From positions 1-53,141 of the IMG/VR virus record IMGVR_UViG_3300028590_000320: DNA of 53,141 nucleotides, one strand, 5' to 3'. Source of the stretch: a virus. This document shows positions 20,713 through 52,956 of this stretch, one piece after another. Positions within the stretch are counted from its first letter, which is position 1, and the number at the start of each line of letters is the position of its first letter. A program made the translations under genes and the position numbers. The notes under the pieces are model-generated. The model did no database searches. It was not told where the DNA came from and saw nothing but the letters and a program-made list of their open reading frames with translations.

Positions 20713-21517
20713 AAAGCGCGGCGTAGAAGAGGCCTACACCTCGGCCTCGACAAGCTCCAACCTGCGAGTGGAGGCCGACCGGCCCGGTGACGCAGACGTG
20801 ATCATCGCGGCGGGATGGAACCAGAGCCGCATCGGTGCCGCGCTGCTGCGCTTGCACACGGAGTTCGATGCCAGCGAACGGCTGAGGCTAGCGACGGCCG
20901 ATCAATTCCTGCCGGCAGGGAAGACCTCGAAAGAGCAGCGCACAGCCGCCGCCACACAGGCGTTTGCCTTCAACTTGCACGAGACGGGCCTCCTGCTGGG
21001 CAAGCTGAAGTCCCTCCCGGACGTTCGCGCCCAGGCAATGATTCAGGCGATGAAGTGGGGATTCGGCCGGCCTCAAGACCCCGTGACGTGCTCCGAGCGA
21101 ACGGAGGCCCGCGAGCACGACGCGGCGCTCCTGAAGCGTCTGAGGGAGGAGGTGGCGAAGGCCGGCGATGACGAGCGCGCGCTAGCAATGGCCAATGCAA
21201 CCCTGGTCATCACCTCGGAGGAGGTTGAGGGTCGCCGCAAGGTGGAAGAGGAAGAAGACGTTGCCCGCTGCGGTGAGAAGGTGGCCTCGGTCATCCGCTG
21301 GTGGCTTTCGCAGCGCTGCCCCGCCTGCTCGGGAACGAAGTTCCAGGTCGTCGAAGGGACGAACCGGCATGGCGCAAAGATCTGCCGCCCGTGCGGCGGC
21401 ACCGGCCTTCGGGAGGTGCCGCACCAGCAGCAGGGCCGACGCCTGGCGTGCTGGTTCGACCAGTGCGTGGAGCGGGCTAGGGCGTCAATTGGGCGGAGGC
21501 TTCGGTCAGTTGACTAG
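20699..21517 (+). CDS. Antitermination protein Q-like, zinc-finger type
   Basis: 272 residues from MFNDEKRGVEEAYT. The C-terminal part has a DnaJ-like zinc ribbon: CPACSGTKF then CRPCGGTG, as in phage Q proteins that bind the late promoter and RNA polymerase. Before it lies a helical domain with VIRWWLSQRC. It is the last gene of the early rightward operon, where Q is expected. Its 3' end meets the cyclase gene head-on with a four-base overlap. Confidence 0.72.
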   Translation: MFNDEKRGVEEAYTSASTSSNLRVEADRPGDADVIIAAGWNQSRIGAALLRLHTEFDASERLRLATADQFLPAGKTSKEQRTAAATQAFAFNLHETGLLLGKLKSLPDVRAQAMIQAMKWGFGRPQDPVTCSERTEAREHDAALLKRLREEVAKAGDDERALAMANATLVITSEEVEGRRKVEEEEDVARCGEKVASVIRWWLSQRCPACSGTKFQVVEGTNRHGAKICRPCGGTGLREVPHQQQGRRLACWFDQCVERARASIGRRLRSVD

Positions 21518-22209
21518 TCAACTCTGTATGTCCATGCCGAGCAATAGATACGCGCATTATTCATCGCGGTCCAGCTTCGAGCCTCCCACATGGGCGCACC
21601 GTTCGAGAATTTGACATCAGCAATCATGGAGTCGTATACGGTCTGGGTGATCCAAAGAGGTTTTTCACCCAAATTTGTAAGTTTGGCTGCATGATTTGCT
21701 GCCTGTCCAACCCAGACGATGTCGTTATAGCCACGGACCCCAATTCGAGCCGCCATAAGTGGGCTGGCATCGACTCCGACTACGTGGTTTAGAGTGAATT
21801 CTGTAGTTGGGTATTGTCTTTTTATTGCTGGGCGGATGATATTCACGACAGCCCAGTTGATCTGCATTGCAGATCTCACCGCATTCGTATTTTTTGTGCT
21901 TCCCATGAAAATCGCCATGATGCGATCTCCATCGTAGGCAGTAATAGTGCCGTCATTTGACTTTATTATCCTGGCTGCACAGCGTAGGTAGGTTTTGTAA
22001 ACTTCGGCGCTAAACGACCATTTGTATCCATCCACCATCTTTGTGGAGCCGTTCATGTCTGCATAAAGAACCACAGCAATTTCAAGTTCTTTAGCATGAT
22101 TGCTTAGTCGGAGATCAGCGGCATCGGGGACGCTCGTTGTTTTAACTGTTTCCCACGCCTCCGAGAAAATTTCGGCCACTTCGACTTCGAGATCTTGTTT
22201 TAGCGGCAT
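21514..22209 (-). CDS. pycC: Pycsar nucleotide cyclase (class III cyclase fold)
   Basis: 231 residues. Class III cyclase motifs are intact: Asp51 in VVLYADMNGSTKM and Asp95 in YDGDRIMAIF for the two metals, and NDIVWVGQAANHAAKL with Asn172 and Lys176 in the transition-state helix. PycC enzymes make cCMP or cUMP after phage infection. The gene is paired with a PycTM-like effector seven bases upstream in the same operon, which is the defining Pycsar layout. The product nucleotide cannot be read from sequence. The DNA is AT-richer than its surroundings (24 of 60 bases GC at 21781-21840). Confidence 0.88.
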   Translation of the reverse strand: MPLKQDLEVEVAEIFSEAWETVKTTSVPDAADLRLSNHAKELEIAVVLYADMNGSTKMVDGYKWSFSAEVYKTYLRCAARIIKSNDGTITAYDGDRIMAIFMGSTKNTNAVRSAMQINWAVVNIIRPAIKRQYPTTEFTLNHVVGVDASPLMAARIGVRGYNDIVWVGQAANHAAKLTNLGEKPLWITQTVYDSMIADVKFSNGAPMWEARSWTAMNNARIYCSAWTYRVD

Positions 22210-22215
22210 ATTAGA

Positions 22216-22710
22216 CTACGGCTTAATAAACATGATGATGGAAACAATCCAGGGGCTAGCGGCCGCAAAAGAAAAGCGAATGCTGAGGCCAACCCATTTG
22301 TATTTGGCGGCGGCAATTTCGGCGTTTCTGTGAATCTGTGCTGTCCAGTCTTTGAGCAATTCCTCTGCGCTTGCGTGTGAGAATTGGGACTGAAATTCAG
22401 GAAGGCTGAGCTCCTGAATTCTGCCAAAGAACAATAGTGAGCTTATAGGGCCTCCGATGCGAGGCTTCAATGCAATGGCGGCGCAAACCAAAGCGGCCAC
22501 TGTTCCCACCGCTGCGAATCCGGCAAAAAAATATGCCCAGGCCGTGCGCGTGGAGGCATCGGAGGCGCCGTAGGCGGCTGCCAAGCCTGCAAGCAATCCG
22601 GTGTCAATGGCAACCACTGCTCCGACTTTCACTTCAGCGGCGGCAATCCAGGCCAAATGGCGCTCGAGCACCCATTGAGCGGTCGCCAGTCGATCAGACA
22701 CGTCATTCAT
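22216..22710 (-). CDS. pycTM: Pycsar membrane effector (PycTM, DUF5706)
   Basis: 164 residues from MNDVSDRLATAQ. The N-terminal motif WVLERHLAWIAAAEVKVG leads into a first membrane helix (26-46), then a second (58-81), then the conserved GGPISSLLFFGRIQEL loop, the EELLKDWTAQIHRNAEIAAAKY segment, and a last membrane helix (141-162). This is the domain order of Pycsar transmembrane effectors, which damage the inner membrane on binding a cyclic pyrimidine. A longer upstream frame is rejected: it runs through structured RNA sequence and lacks a ribosome site. Transcribed with the cyclase, antisense to the phage late direction. Confidence 0.88.
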   Translation of the reverse strand: MNDVSDRLATAQWVLERHLAWIAAAEVKVGAVVAIDTGLLAGLAAAYGASDASTRTAWAYFFAGFAAVGTVAALVCAAIALKPRIGGPISSLLFFGRIQELSLPEFQSQFSHASAEELLKDWTAQIHRNAEIAAAKYKWVGLSIRFSFAAASPWIVSIIMFIKP

Positions 22711-22779
22711 CGCGTTTGAAAAAATTTGGTTACAACATTGTCCCACCGCATCTGATTTCTGGCATCCCCCACGTTGGGG

Positions 22780-22808
22780 TTTCCAGAAAAAGAGAAGTGC
22801 TGCATAAT
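22780..22808 (+). promoter_or_regulatory. Candidate late promoter (PR'-like)
   Basis: TTTCCA (22780-22785), a 17-base spacer and CATAAT (22803-22808, five of six to consensus). It points toward the late genes and is followed by hairpins and a terminator, as in lambda PR'-tR'. The Q-like gene is upstream, separated only by the antisense Pycsar pair. Confidence 0.5.
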
Positions 22809-22823
22809 TTGCACCGAGTTCGC

Positions 22824-22911
22824 GCGTACTGCTGAGTACGCTGCCCTCAACTCTTTGCTGAACACCTGCCGCCGCTCCGGCGACGGCCGCCACCCTCGAC
22901 GGGGAAGGTGT
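22824..22911 (+). ncRNA. Structured leader RNA before the late terminator
   Basis: A perfect 7-bp hairpin, GCGTACT/AGTACGC with loop GCTG, at 22824-22841, then a closing stem ACACCT (22862-22867) with AGGTGT (22906-22911) that encloses two GC-rich hairpins. A terminator follows. No reading frame with a ribosome site fits here. It could be a pause or antitermination leader read by the Q-like protein, or an independent small RNA. Confidence 0.4.
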
Positions 22912-22923
22912 CTCCAAAATTCA

Positions 22924-22950
22924 AAGCCGCCCACTGAGGCGGCTTTTTCG
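22924..22950 (+). terminator. Strong rho-independent terminator (tR'-like)
   Basis: Stem AGCCGCC/GGCGGCT with loop CACTGA followed by TTTTT. It ends the leader transcript, and late expression would need antitermination through it. Confidence 0.88.
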
Positions 22951-22955
22951 TTTCC

Positions 22956-23031
22956 GCATTCCAGCGCGCGGGCCGCGTCGCCAGCCTTCCAAGCTGTGCA
23001 GAGAAGGGTTCGATTCCCTCGGGATGCTCCA
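22956..23031 (+). tRNA. tRNA-Gly(UCC)-like gene, degenerate
   Basis: Exactly 76 bases with encoded CCA. The acceptor GCATTCC/GGGATGC gives seven pairs with one wobble. The anticodon loop CTTCCAA carries UCC with U33, and U73 fits Gly identity. The T loop TTCGATT is canonical. Defects: an anticodon stem mismatch (C22981-T22997), a T stem mismatch (A23004-C23020), no T8, and a very GC-rich D arm without the usual A14. It may be a decayed or highly diverged phage tRNA. No reading frame competes. Confidence 0.45.
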
Positions 23032-23037
23032 AGTCAG

Positions 23038-23065
23038 GCAGGTTCAATTCCTGCTCGCTGGCCGA
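23038..23065 (+). pseudogene. Isolated tRNA 3' half (T arm and acceptor strand)
   Basis: A perfect T arm, GCAGG-TTCAATT-CCTGC, followed by a seven-base acceptor strand and a CGA in place of CCA. There is no matching D and anticodon half upstream, since only six bases separate it from the preceding tRNA. It is probably a remnant of a tRNA array. Confidence 0.5.
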
Positions 23066-23079
23066 GATCTGGTGAAGGA

Positions 23080-23107
23080 CGGGGTTCGAATCCCCGGCGG
23101 GGCGCAA
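23080..23107 (+). pseudogene. Second isolated tRNA 3' half
   Basis: A perfect T arm, CGGGG-TTCGAAT-CCCCG with the consensus loop, followed by GCGGGGC and GCA. The 5' half is missing. The T loops of this array lie 34 and 42 bases apart, too close for full tRNAs. The GCGGGGC strand can instead fold on itself with the next bases through a GCAA tetraloop. Confidence 0.5.
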
Positions 23108-23384
23108 GCCCTTCGCGACGCTGTCCGGGTAGACAGGGGCACAAGCCAGCCGGGGGAAGGGCTCCCGGCGCCAATTTCGCGGTCAAGCGCTCGCGCGCAG
23201 GGTTGAGAGTTCCCGGCCGCCGCAACCACTTTCGGCGACAGCCGGCTGGAAGATGTCGAAGCGCCTGCTCAACAGCCAGCGCCGGGCCAAGTCTGGCCCG
23301 CAGGACCAAGCTCCAGCCGCCGCCCGTTTACGGCCAGACGCGAACCCGCTTATCAAGGGCGCGCGAGGCTCAGGGATTCCGAAT
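23108..23384. other. Gene-free GC-rich structured stretch
   Basis: No convincing gene is seen. Several strong hairpins are present: CTGTC/GACAG at 23121-23136, GCCGGG/CCCGGC at 23149-23169, and a 7-bp stem CGGGCCA/TGGCCCG at 23283-23300. A tRNA-end-like ACCA occurs at 23225-23228. It could be further decay of the tRNA array or a structured RNA. Confidence 0.35.
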
Positions 23385-47048: not shown

Positions 47049-47588
47049 ATGCTGCCCGACCTCAAGACCCCGCTGCTCTGGGTGCTCGGCCTGGGGCTCG
47101 TGGCGGCGCTCGCCACGGCCGGCATCGAGCGCACGCGCGCGGCGGGCGCCCGCGCCGACCTGGCCGCGGAGAAGCGCAGTCGAGCCGAAGAGAACACCGC
47201 CCGCGTGCTGGCTGCGCTGGCCGACCTGCAGCGCACTGTCACGCTGATGGCGACACACGCCAAGTCCCAGAAGGAGAACGTCGATGCATACGAAACGCGC
47301 CTTGCGGCGCTTGCCGGCCGTGGCCACGCTGTTGCTGCTGAACTTGGCCGGGTGCGCGAGCAATACCGCACCTTCGCCGCCCGTGATCGCGAGCAGGCCG
47401 TCAGCGACCCCGCTGCCTGCCAGCGTGTTGCAGATCGATCCGCAGTCCTCGCAGCCATGGCTGCACGAAGTCGAGAGCTTCTTGAGCGAGGCCGACTCAT
47501 TGTTGAGGGGCGAGACAACGAAGTGCAGCTTCTGCTCGGCACCGTGAAGAACGACCGGGTGCTGCTGGCGCCTACAAGCCTTTATTAA
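47049..47588 (+). CDS. Rz: Rz-like inner-membrane spanin
   Basis: 179 residues from MLPDLKTPLLWVLG. One N-terminal membrane helix (LWVLGLGLVAALATAG) is followed by an extended charged helix (AEKRSRAEENTARVLAAL). It spans the periplasm and pairs with Rz1. It starts eight bases after the endolysin stop. Its 3' end overlaps the convergent RelA/SpoT gene by 17 bases. Confidence 0.82.
   Translation: MLPDLKTPLLWVLGLGLVAALATAGIERTRAAGARADLAAEKRSRAEENTARVLAALADLQRTVTLMATHAKSQKENVDAYETRLAALAGRGHAVAAELGRVREQYRTFAARDREQAVSDPAACQRVADRSAVLAAMAARSRELLERGRLIVEGRDNEVQLLLGTVKNDRVLLAPTSLY
47284..47547 (+). CDS. Rz1: Rz1-like outer-membrane spanin lipoprotein, nested in Rz
   Basis: 87 residues in the +1 frame inside Rz. 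Basic start MHTKRALRR, a hydrophobic run and lipobox NLAGC with Cys24, then Pro-rich NTAPSPPVIASRPS. It is the usual Rz1 form and anchors to the outer membrane, where it binds Rz to fuse the membranes. Confidence 0.82.
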   Translation: MHTKRALRRLPAVATLLLLNLAGCASNTAPSPPVIASRPSATPLPASVLQIDPQSSQPWLHEVESFLSEADSLLRGETTKCSFCSAP

Positions 47589-48630
47589 GGATAGACCCCA
47601 GTTCGTTTAAAAACGAAGTAGTGTCTAGGAAGTAATTAGGGTAGGCGCGCTTTAAGTTTTGGATCGAGTCAACAGAAACCAGAACTGCTTCTGCACCCGG
47701 GCTATCGGCAATTCTCTCTTCTTGGATTAAGTAGGCATGCGATGCCTCTTCCAGCTTGCTTCTCGGGAATCCCTTGAAAATCATGGTTCCTTTCCCCGGT
47801 TCTAGAACCAGAAGAAAGTAATGGTGATTTTGTTGGTCGCCCTCCTGAGTAACTTCAATAGCATGTTGATACATTGAGAGTGCGTTTTGCACATTCAATA
47901 CCTTCTCAATGTCTCGTATTTCTTTTGCCAATCGACCCGCATCTTGAGGTGTGTCTGGAACTAGCGAAGCGCATTTCTCTTTAATAGCGAATGCGCTACC
48001 CATCAGAGAGAAAAAGCGCAGCCACTGCTCCTCCCCCAGGCTTGATTTCAGGGCTTGGCTTAGGAATGTTCCAACTGTTTCGACTGCAGTTGCCCAAGTA
48101 TGTTGGAGCTTCGTGCGGAGCTGCATCTCCACAAACAAGCCGTTATAGATCGATGGCCCCTCTCGGTCACTGAAGTATCTATACACAAGGTGGATGCCTC
48201 GATACCCTGATGATTTAGGGTTCGCAATGTAATCATCAATATCGTCCAGCTTGTGCTTTAAATCTGATTCCTCATAGGTCTCCGCGAGCATCTCTACATT
48301 TTTCACGGTATTTAGGATTACTCGGCAGCCGCCTATGTCCTGCATCTGGGACATGCGCATCGCAGGAAAGCGAGCCAGTTTTGCTTCGATAGAGGTCATG
48401 CGCTTGATGCGCTGTGCCACCAGCCGATGTGGATCGATCGCCAGCGCCTTTTTTCTAAGTGTGACCTGAAAGGTGTTGAGCGGAAAATTGTGGGAGGCCC
48501 GCCAGTTATTAACCGTGTTCATGGCCTGCCAGTATTCCGGCGTTGTTGCGTCTCCAACTAGCAACTGCCTCGCGGCGCGGTCAACTGCACCCTTTGAATA
48601 CTGAGGCTTCACCCACTCAAGACTGCTCAT
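47572..48630 (-). CDS. RelA/SpoT-type nucleotide synthetase, possible phage-defence toxin
   Basis: 352 residues. Synthetase motifs are intact: RIKRMTSIEAK (Arg74, Lys76, Ser80, Lys84), DIGGCRVI with Asp98, NPKSSGYRGIH with Tyr143, and VEMQLRT with Glu168. There is no HD hydrolase domain. Such enzymes make (p)ppGpp, (p)ppApp or, in toxSAS proteins, pyrophosphorylate tRNA ends. A C-terminal part of about 120 residues may sense or restrain it. The gene is antisense after the lysis cassette, AT-rich (21 of 60 bases GC at 47581-47640), and without clear antitoxin gene. Activity and substrate cannot be read. Confidence 0.85.
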   Translation of the reverse strand: MSSLEWVKPQYSKGAVDRAARQLLVGDATTPEYWQAMNTVNNWRASHNFPLNTFQVTLRKKALAIDPHRLVAQRIKRMTSIEAKLARFPAMRMSQMQDIGGCRVILNTVKNVEMLAETYEESDLKHKLDDIDDYIANPKSSGYRGIHLVYRYFSDREGPSIYNGLFVEMQLRTKLQHTWATAVETVGTFLSQALKSSLGEEQWLRFFSLMGSAFAIKEKCASLVPDTPQDAGRLAKEIRDIEKVLNVQNALSMYQHAIEVTQEGDQQNHHYFLLVLEPGKGTMIFKGFPRSKLEEASHAYLIQEERIADSPGAEAVLVSVDSIQNLKRAYPNYFLDTTSFLNELGSILNKGL

Positions 48631-51570: not shown

Positions 51571-52884
51571 TCAGGTCGACCGGCTGGCCGCCCGAGACTT
51601 CGCTTCACGCGCCAGTTTCTCGAGGTGCTTCGAAAGCACTGTGAGCCATCGTCGGCGCTCGACGTCGTAGGTGTGCGAGTTGTACGTGACTTCGATCACC
51701 GGTGGCATGTGGCCCAGCAGGGCCTCGCCGATTTCCTTCGGACAACCCAGGGCCGCCAGCATGGTCCGGCTCGTGCGGCGCAGGTTGTGCGGCGTCCAGT
51801 GGGTCACCGGGAGAACGAGCCCTTCGCTCGCGCGCCGTCGGACCTTCTCCGAGTACGGCTGCAGCCCGTAGATGTAGGTCGAGAAGTCGTGCTGCGTGTA
51901 CTGCTCGCCACGAGCATCCTCGAACAGCCAGCCGGACTTGCCGACGTTCTCCAGCCGGCGCTGCACGATCTTCAGCGCGCGGCCGACCAGCGGCACCCGC
52001 AAGTCGACCGCATCGGCGAATCGCTCGTTCTTCGTCATCTCCCTCGGCACCGTCCACCACCAGCCGTCTTGTTCGTCGGTGATGTACTCGGGCCGCATGG
52101 ACAGGATCTCGGAGCCGCGAGTACAAGTCCAGAGGTAGACCTGCAACGTGTCCTGGCCAAGCTCGTGCATGTTCGGGAGCCAGGCCAAGAGGTCACCGAC
52201 TTGCTCGCCCTGGAGCAGGGGGCGCTGCTGGCCCTGATGCTCGCCGCCGATGATCTTTCCCTTGCTTTTCAGCTTGCCCTTTTGAACCATGAGCCACCAG
52301 TTCGGTGTGTCTTGGTCGAGGCGGCCCGCGTCGAGAGCTCGAGCCCATGCGGCCCCAAGCATGGAGCGTAGCTTTTGGGCGGCGGTCGGCGTAGCTTTTC
52401 GGGTTTCGAGGATGTCGAAACAGGTTGAACGGCTCACAGAAGCGGCTGCCGAATCGGCGAAATCTGGCTCTTCGTCCATCAGCCGCTCCAGCGCGCGGCG
52501 CGCGGCTGTGGCGCCAGCTTCGTCTCGTTCCTGCAGGATGTGGCCGGTGATGTAGTCGGCGACCACCTTGCGCACCGTAAGCACTTCGGTCGTCGGGGCC
52601 GGCGAAGCCACTGCTTTGCGCTTTCGGCGCTGGTGCTCTTTCGGGTCTATTCCTTCGGCACGCAGCTTGCGCAGTGCATCCCAGGCCGCGGCCGCCTCGG
52701 GCGCCTTCATGGATGGATAAGCGCCGATGGACGTCTGCTTCATGAGTCCGCTGGCCGGCGACTTGTAGCGATAGGTCCACGTCTGCTTCGATGCCGACGC
52801 CACGAGGCGCAGCCCCTCGCAGCCATCAACCACAAGGTGTTCGCCAGGCTTGAGCAGCTTGGCGGCGCGGACGTCGAAGAACAT
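51571..52884 (-). CDS. int: Tyrosine-recombinase integrase
   Basis: 437 residues from MFFDVRAAKLLKPG. N-terminal arm-binding DUF4102 domain, then a core-binding domain, then the catalytic part: Arg256 in CTRGSEIL, His366-x-x-Arg369 in PHNLRR, His392 in LLGHMPP and the tyrosine at Tyr401 (VTYNSHTY; Tyr406 is the alternative). It integrates the phage into the tRNA-Gly anticodon loop. A longer start at 52932 is possible, but GGGAG sits well before 52884. Confidence 0.92.
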   Translation of the reverse strand: MFFDVRAAKLLKPGEHLVVDGCEGLRLVASASKQTWTYRYKSPASGLMKQTSIGAYPSMKAPEAAAAWDALRKLRAEGIDPKEHQRRKRKAVASPAPTTEVLTVRKVVADYITGHILQERDEAGATAARRALERLMDEEPDFADSAAASVSRSTCFDILETRKATPTAAQKLRSMLGAAWARALDAGRLDQDTPNWWLMVQKGKLKSKGKIIGGEHQGQQRPLLQGEQVGDLLAWLPNMHELGQDTLQVYLWTCTRGSEILSMRPEYITDEQDGWWWTVPREMTKNERFADAVDLRVPLVGRALKIVQRRLENVGKSGWLFEDARGEQYTQHDFSTYIYGLQPYSEKVRRRASEGLVLPVTHWTPHNLRRTSRTMLAALGCPKEIGEALLGHMPPVIEVTYNSHTYDVERRRWLTVLSKHLEKLAREAKSRAASRST

Positions 52885-52956
52885 GGACCTATACTCCCGG
52901 GTGTCGTCGTGGCGTAGGAATGCCCACGGCATGTGGGCCCGGCGTAGATTCCTCAA

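Follow-up and report, generated by a model that had tools for sequence, protein, structure and literature searches.

The stretch analyzed here (the window) is a virus record of 53,141 bases, and all coordinates given without a locus prefix (L009, L011 and others, for related loci) are positions in this window. The region under study carries the following features:

22923-22946, plus strand: intrinsic-terminator-like hairpin upstream of the tRNA-Gly gene; weak, since 2.2 such sites are expected by chance in the region
22956-23031, plus strand: tRNA-Gly(UCC) with encoded CCA, called by ARAGORN; a neighbour of the double-T-arm RNA that lies outside its family
23030-23144, plus strand: core of the double-T-arm RNA; 89.2 bits with covariance model R1, whose 67 training rows include the window, and an independent BLAST match to Pseudomonas phage Touem01

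On the opposite strand, a complete Pycsar anti-phage pair at 21514-22917 (cyclase PycC, 21514-22209; effector PycTM, 22216-22917) directly adjoins the tRNA-Gly and the double-T-arm RNA.

The tRNA-Gly gene and the T-arm motifs

A reading made earlier from the letters of the window alone (the sequence-only reading) had proposed a tRNA-Gly with anticodon UCC and encoded CCA, and ARAGORN found this gene at 22956-23031. The cloverleaf, the anticodon and the encoded CCA are all present according to ARAGORN and homology. By BLAST, the gene shares 84-87% identity over 56-59 bases with tRNA-Gly genes of Aeromonas and Klebsiella phages, and its short, non-standard D arm resembles that of the Aeromonas gene. 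A tRNA-Gly likewise adjoins the element in the close relative L009. Because of the match to phage tRNA-Gly genes, we read it as an intact, genuine phage-type tRNA and no remnant, contrary to the proposal that it was part of a degenerate array. No Rfam tRNA hit reached the gathering threshold in the window, this gene included.

Copies of the strict T-arm motif GGTTCRANNCC begin at positions 23007, 23041 and 23083, in agreement with the 34- and 42-base spacings already described. Five copies occur in the whole window, where 1.1 would be expected, and three of them fall within 87 bases. A second ARAGORN call, tRNA-Leu(CAA) at 23014-23105, was held to be spurious because it overlaps the tRNA-Gly and uses T arm A of the neighbouring RNA as its anticodon arm. 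Similar overlapping calls were obtained in other members of the family, as tRNA-Ser (L086, L129) or tRNA-Tyr (L126).

The second and third arms had each been taken for the 3' half of a separate tRNA, acceptor strand included. This view had to be abandoned since the spacer is conserved together with both arms and 97 loci share the unit: 23030-23144 is one copy of a conserved structured phage RNA, not two tRNA halves. The suggestion of tRNA-like RNAs with another job came close, although there is a single RNA with two T arms and not two RNAs. Its parts in the window are as follows:

23038-23054, plus strand: T arm A, GCAGG TTCAATT CCTGC, seen in the sequence; covarying stem, with CG/GC/UA/AU at two of five pairs
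23055-23059, plus strand: linker TCGCT (TCGNT in the family); TCG invariant in 97/97 members, its G having been left free in one scan
23060-23063, plus strand: P1 5' strand GGCC; long-range covariation, with six 5' types in the family
23064-23066, plus strand: GAG between the P1 5' strand and the D-loop-like segment
23067-23076, plus strand: D-loop-like segment ATCTGGTGAA, with GGT; GG invariant in 67/67 members of alignment A4
23080-23096, plus strand: T arm C, CGGGG TTCGAAT CCCCG; changes on both sides at all five stem pairs in the family
23099-23112, plus strand: hairpin D with a GCAA (GNRA) tetraloop
23121-23136, plus strand: hairpin E, CTGTC CGGGTA GACAG, with GG in the loop
23138-23141, plus strand: P1 3' strand GGCA; three of four pairs form in the window, and the same GGCA is found in L078 and L009
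23149-23169, plus strand: optional hairpin F, GCCGGG...CCCGGC, from folding

The single P1 mismatch in the window is G23060/A23141. Within the core, the T arms stand alone, with no acceptor pairing or strand, no anticodon arm and no CCA, and the features of a tRNA (RF00005) are therefore missing. The element measures approximately 115-150 bases. Using a strict rule, the loop of hairpin D was GNRA in 26 of 64 members, with TTCG or CTTG in several others, and an extra small GNRA hairpin was seen 5' of T arm A in 15 of 64. Hairpin E was found in 60/64 members, and 53 of these 60 loops contained GG. On the 3' side of P1, some members have either hairpin F (of the TGACAGCCGGGAAAGACCGGCA type) or an intrinsic terminator; an F-like hairpin was present there in 26/64 members and absent from many.

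A phage RNA family supported by covariation

A BLAST search matched Pseudomonas phage Touem01 to window positions 23035-23094 (60 bases, E 9e-7), a stretch that includes T arm A and the spacer and runs through most of T arm C. A decaying array would not have kept this spacer, and its retention in Touem01 speaks against decay. A pattern built from the shared stretch was found in six viral contigs, and a looser pattern in 88 stretches, of which 84 loci, including the window, were kept when a paired T stem was required. The final set contains 97 non-redundant loci, nearly all from viral contigs, and the named carriers are Pseudomonas phage Touem01, Ruegeria phage RpAliso, Xylophilus phage Lumi and phage ct7L0027. 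A related pattern matched 41 times across approximately 85,000 prokaryote genomes, with only three clear members, suggesting that the element belongs mainly to phages. No pattern match was obtained in plasmids and E. coli genomes. A search of 199 Pseudomonas and 250 Burkholderiales genomes with the RNA model also returned nothing; since 14-18 candidates were scored per genome, this search was given no weight. All 42 records tested had one strong copy each. The core is incomplete in a few loci, T arm C being missing in L074 and L103 and the P1 partner in L161, and the RNA is absent from the syntenic relatives phiPSA1, AUS531phi and pAEv1818.

With 67 aligned sequences, the covariation score was 0.469, compared to 0.123 +/- 0.011 for shuffled alignments and 0.05-0.105 when the partners were slid; 93.8% of cells were paired, and 9 of 14 pairs showed changes on both sides. 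RNAalifold recovered T stem A, T stem C and P1 unprompted. Since the P1 5' strand had been largely predetermined by the first patterns, two scans were run with the P1 positions free. They uncovered GGTC/GACC, GATC/GATC, TGCC/GGCA and GGCT/AGCC in place of the GGCC or GACC 5' strands, and 20 of the 22 non-redundant cases had the predicted 3' strand downstream, where other loci set the expectation at 30%. Overall, the P1 strands match in 87/97 non-redundant members, compared to 47 +/- 4 after shuffling (maximum 62, 2000 shuffles). P1 is thus confirmed prospectively, and T stem A, T stem C and this long-range helix are all supported by covariation.

Conservation across the members further shows canonical T-loop sequences (TTCRANN), an invariant GG located 3' of the P1 5' strand and a GG in the loop of hairpin E. 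Most members were selected by patterns that made no demand on T arm C, the GG or hairpin E, and the conservation of these parts is therefore independent support. After the window copy, the next best R1 score in the 20-26 kb stretch was 10.8 bits, and members outside the training set (L060, L083, L066, L124) scored 50-63 bits. The minimum free energy of the window copy was no lower than that of shuffled sequences (z 0.27), and the corresponding fold lacked P1. A CTCG/CGAG mini-hairpin was also considered and then dropped, since TCG is constant while the C of CGAG varies along with P1: in L187, P1 is GGCT/AGCC and TCG is unchanged.

We are almost certain that the double-T-arm RNA family is real. 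The sequence-only reading had offered, as one of two possibilities, an array shrunk by recombination between T arms, and the canonical T arms as well as the true tRNA-Gly alongside would suit such an origin. However, the same 115-base unit recurs with compensatory changes in 97 non-redundant loci of unrelated phages, and tRNAs were seen near the element in the window, L009, L011, L060, L085 and L102, most members having none alongside. A decayed array has next to no probability in light of these data.

Genomic context and comparison with known RNAs

We searched for genes associated with the element, and no protein cluster within 5 kb recurred in more than 4 of 71 loci, leaving no recurring partner gene. 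The same result, together with a distance of 24 kb, leaves unsupported the link previously drawn with a RelA/SpoT enzyme, although the gene itself is real (47572-48630, minus strand; PF04607, E 3.5e-17). Its product is possibly an accessory toxin or alarmone enzyme, and an integrase is encoded nearby at 51571-52956. Promoter-like sites were found upstream of the element in 6/68 cases versus 2.6 after shuffling. As this is no clear enrichment, the RNA may derive from the 3' ends of operons.

For 42 of 55 loci, tiling of open reading frames placed a co-oriented gene upstream, whose end often lay 15-70 bases 5' of T arm A; the downstream gene was co-oriented in 23 of 55. This tiling is rough, the annotated downstream gene of Touem01 having been misplaced, and we therefore relied on three HMM-verified genes that converge on the element just downstream: TerL (L068), a tail protein (L135) and a virion RNA polymerase (L088). 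They exclude a leader role at those loci and, along with the 23/55 co-orientation, led us to reject a leader of the downstream gene as the general role. A cis-acting mRNA element could also be an antitermination signal of the downstream operon or a 3' end structure shielding the upstream mRNA from exonucleases. The frequent co-oriented upstream gene makes a 3' UTR position common, as this explanation would require, but the preceding gene varies between phages. In 7 of the 28 records where TerL was found, it is encoded on the same strand no more than 3.3 kb downstream, which could mean a cis role for some members. Taken together, a cis-acting element is possible but doubtful.

The cis explanation also draws on hairpin F (TGACAGCCGGGAAAGACCGGCA), which occurs alone in L149 2501-2524 (mEp390), L150 2501-2525 (Medea1) and L139 3001-3028 (BUCT709), between the repressor region and the early genes, although it is missing from many members of the family. 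The head of early operons is where nut or put sites would lie, and the lone hairpin resembles nut- or put-like antitermination signals; BUCT709 has further GGGAAAGACC copies. Long noncoding leader segments are shared by L149 2530-2780 (mEp390) and L139 2680-2850 (BUCT709). They contain AGCGCR...GGAGTGCGCT hairpins together with a GTACCAGA...GCTGTGTGTAGTCTTGGC stretch and are possibly another structured leader RNA. In Medea1 (L150 2250-2390), a GCATCGGAGTGTGAT...ATCACACCCCGATGC stem surrounds an anticodon-arm-like hairpin, and the same GCATCGGAGTGTGAT stretch is found downstream of the element in L100. The put RNA of HK022, which can occupy the head of an operon (PMC9378689), is an antiterminator RNA made up of two stem-loops in approximately 70 bases. 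It is a structured phage RNA like the element, but the latter often has no co-oriented downstream gene, and the convergent genes at three loci argue against a similar role.

In the window and several relatives, the element lies 1-3 kb before TerL, and a terminase link appeared strong at first since terminase was commonly downstream. Whole-record distances weakened it: in 21 of 28 records TerL was either distant or encoded on the opposite strand, it converges on the element in L068, and the RNA is absent from phages with a related TerL. Unlike phi29-type packaging RNA, the element thus has no obligate motor link, TerL being close in only 7/28 records, and we consider a packaging RNA or a cos/pac element tied to terminase very unlikely.

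RNAs that mimic tRNAs are known, including Y RNA, tmRNA and viral tRNA-like ends. The element resembles YrlA (RF02553), a tRNA-like noncoding RNA, in that a canonical T arm precedes a D-like part, here the D-loop-like GG. In the Rfam consensus of YrlA, the tRNA-like domain runs from T arm to closed acceptor hairpin to D arm, whereas the element has no acceptor hairpin and carries a second T arm and the long-range P1. The YrlA model hit neither the window copy of the element nor those of eight loci, and a TROVE/Ro60 gene was found in 0 of 50 records while the control genome was positive. A divergent bacterial Y RNA with a Ro60/Rsr partner is therefore already disfavored, and improbable. Permuted tmRNA (RF04321) has the same order of T arm and D-like GG segment, but the element has neither CCA nor a tag reading frame, and no tmRNA model hit it above cut-off in the window and eight loci. 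In L010 and L011, the two RNAs occupy separate loci.

The permuted tmRNA genes themselves (L011 1715-1936; L010 7266-7553, minus strand; 129 and 106 bits, respectively) lie no more than a few hundred bases from the double-T-arm RNA. Two circularly permuted tRNA-like units were also observed in RpAliso (L011 2062-2127 and 2208-2283), each ordered as T arm, acceptor 3' strand with CCA, short loop, acceptor 5' strand and D arm. Their YrlA matches are below cut-off; both permuted tRNAs and Y-RNA-like RNAs are possible identities. The noncoding region L011 1770-2660 contains a repeat, GCGCATG..(A)GGGCAT.CTTCTAT, every few hundred bases.

Interlocked double T-loop modules occur in the T-box stem I, RNase P and the L1 stalk. 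Like the element, they bring two T-loop motifs into one RNA; the T arms of the element differ in being full 5-bp arms with TTCRANN loops, accompanied by GG segments. GOLLD and ROOL are structured phage RNAs of unknown function, often near tRNAs, and many GOLLD RNAs exceed 800 bases (PMC12286853). An RNA scaffold or RNA-only assembly of this style would share the niche of the element, which is phage-encoded, sometimes near tRNAs and without a protein partner gene. Yet the element is T-loop based and, at approximately 115-150 bases, far smaller than GOLLD, and the GOLLD and ROOL models of Rfam gave no match in the window or in eight loci; we regard this alternative as unlikely. More generally, no Rfam (15) family matches the element in the window or in these eight loci, and no description of such a layout was found in open-licence PMC papers, although an earlier listing in large candidate sets is possible. 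As we found no RNA with this layout, the family appears to be previously undescribed and is widespread in phages.

A possible tRNA mimic

Found once per phage, absent in syntenic relatives, without a partner gene and occasionally followed by a convergent gene, the element fits an accessory, probably trans-acting RNA. Our leading explanation, to which we assign a probability of about 50%, is an undescribed phage RNA family that acts in trans as a tRNA mimic. The trans-acting mechanism that we propose for it may well be correct, without quite being probable. The RNA would arise within, or by processing of, the transcript of the preceding gene. Each T loop would dock onto a GG segment, reproducing the contact between the T and D loops at the tRNA elbow; both parts, the T loops and the D-loop-like GG, are conserved when compared at the sequence level. 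The resulting RNA would be compact, present one or two elbow-like faces and lack both an anticodon and a charged end. In trans, such an RNA could bind a host tRNA-handling factor, one that recognizes tRNA elbows or T arms, as a decoy or a recruiter; with no partner gene on the phage side, the partner is presumably a host factor. Examples would be enzymes that modify the T arm, RNase P and defence enzymes attacking tRNAs. More tentatively, the element might represent a new class of phage RNA, with two tRNA-elbow faces in one small molecule, by which many proteobacterial phages would tie up or divert a tRNA-binding enzyme of the host, possibly one with a role in anti-phage defence.

These results add a widespread phage RNA family that is missing from Rfam 15 and whose members are read by tRNA finders as broken or false tRNAs. 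The conservation, in unrelated phages, of a tRNA-shaped RNA with no coding or charging ability and no partner gene suggests a common host target in tRNA biology, and its strictly conserved core offers direct handles for mutants and pull-downs toward that target.
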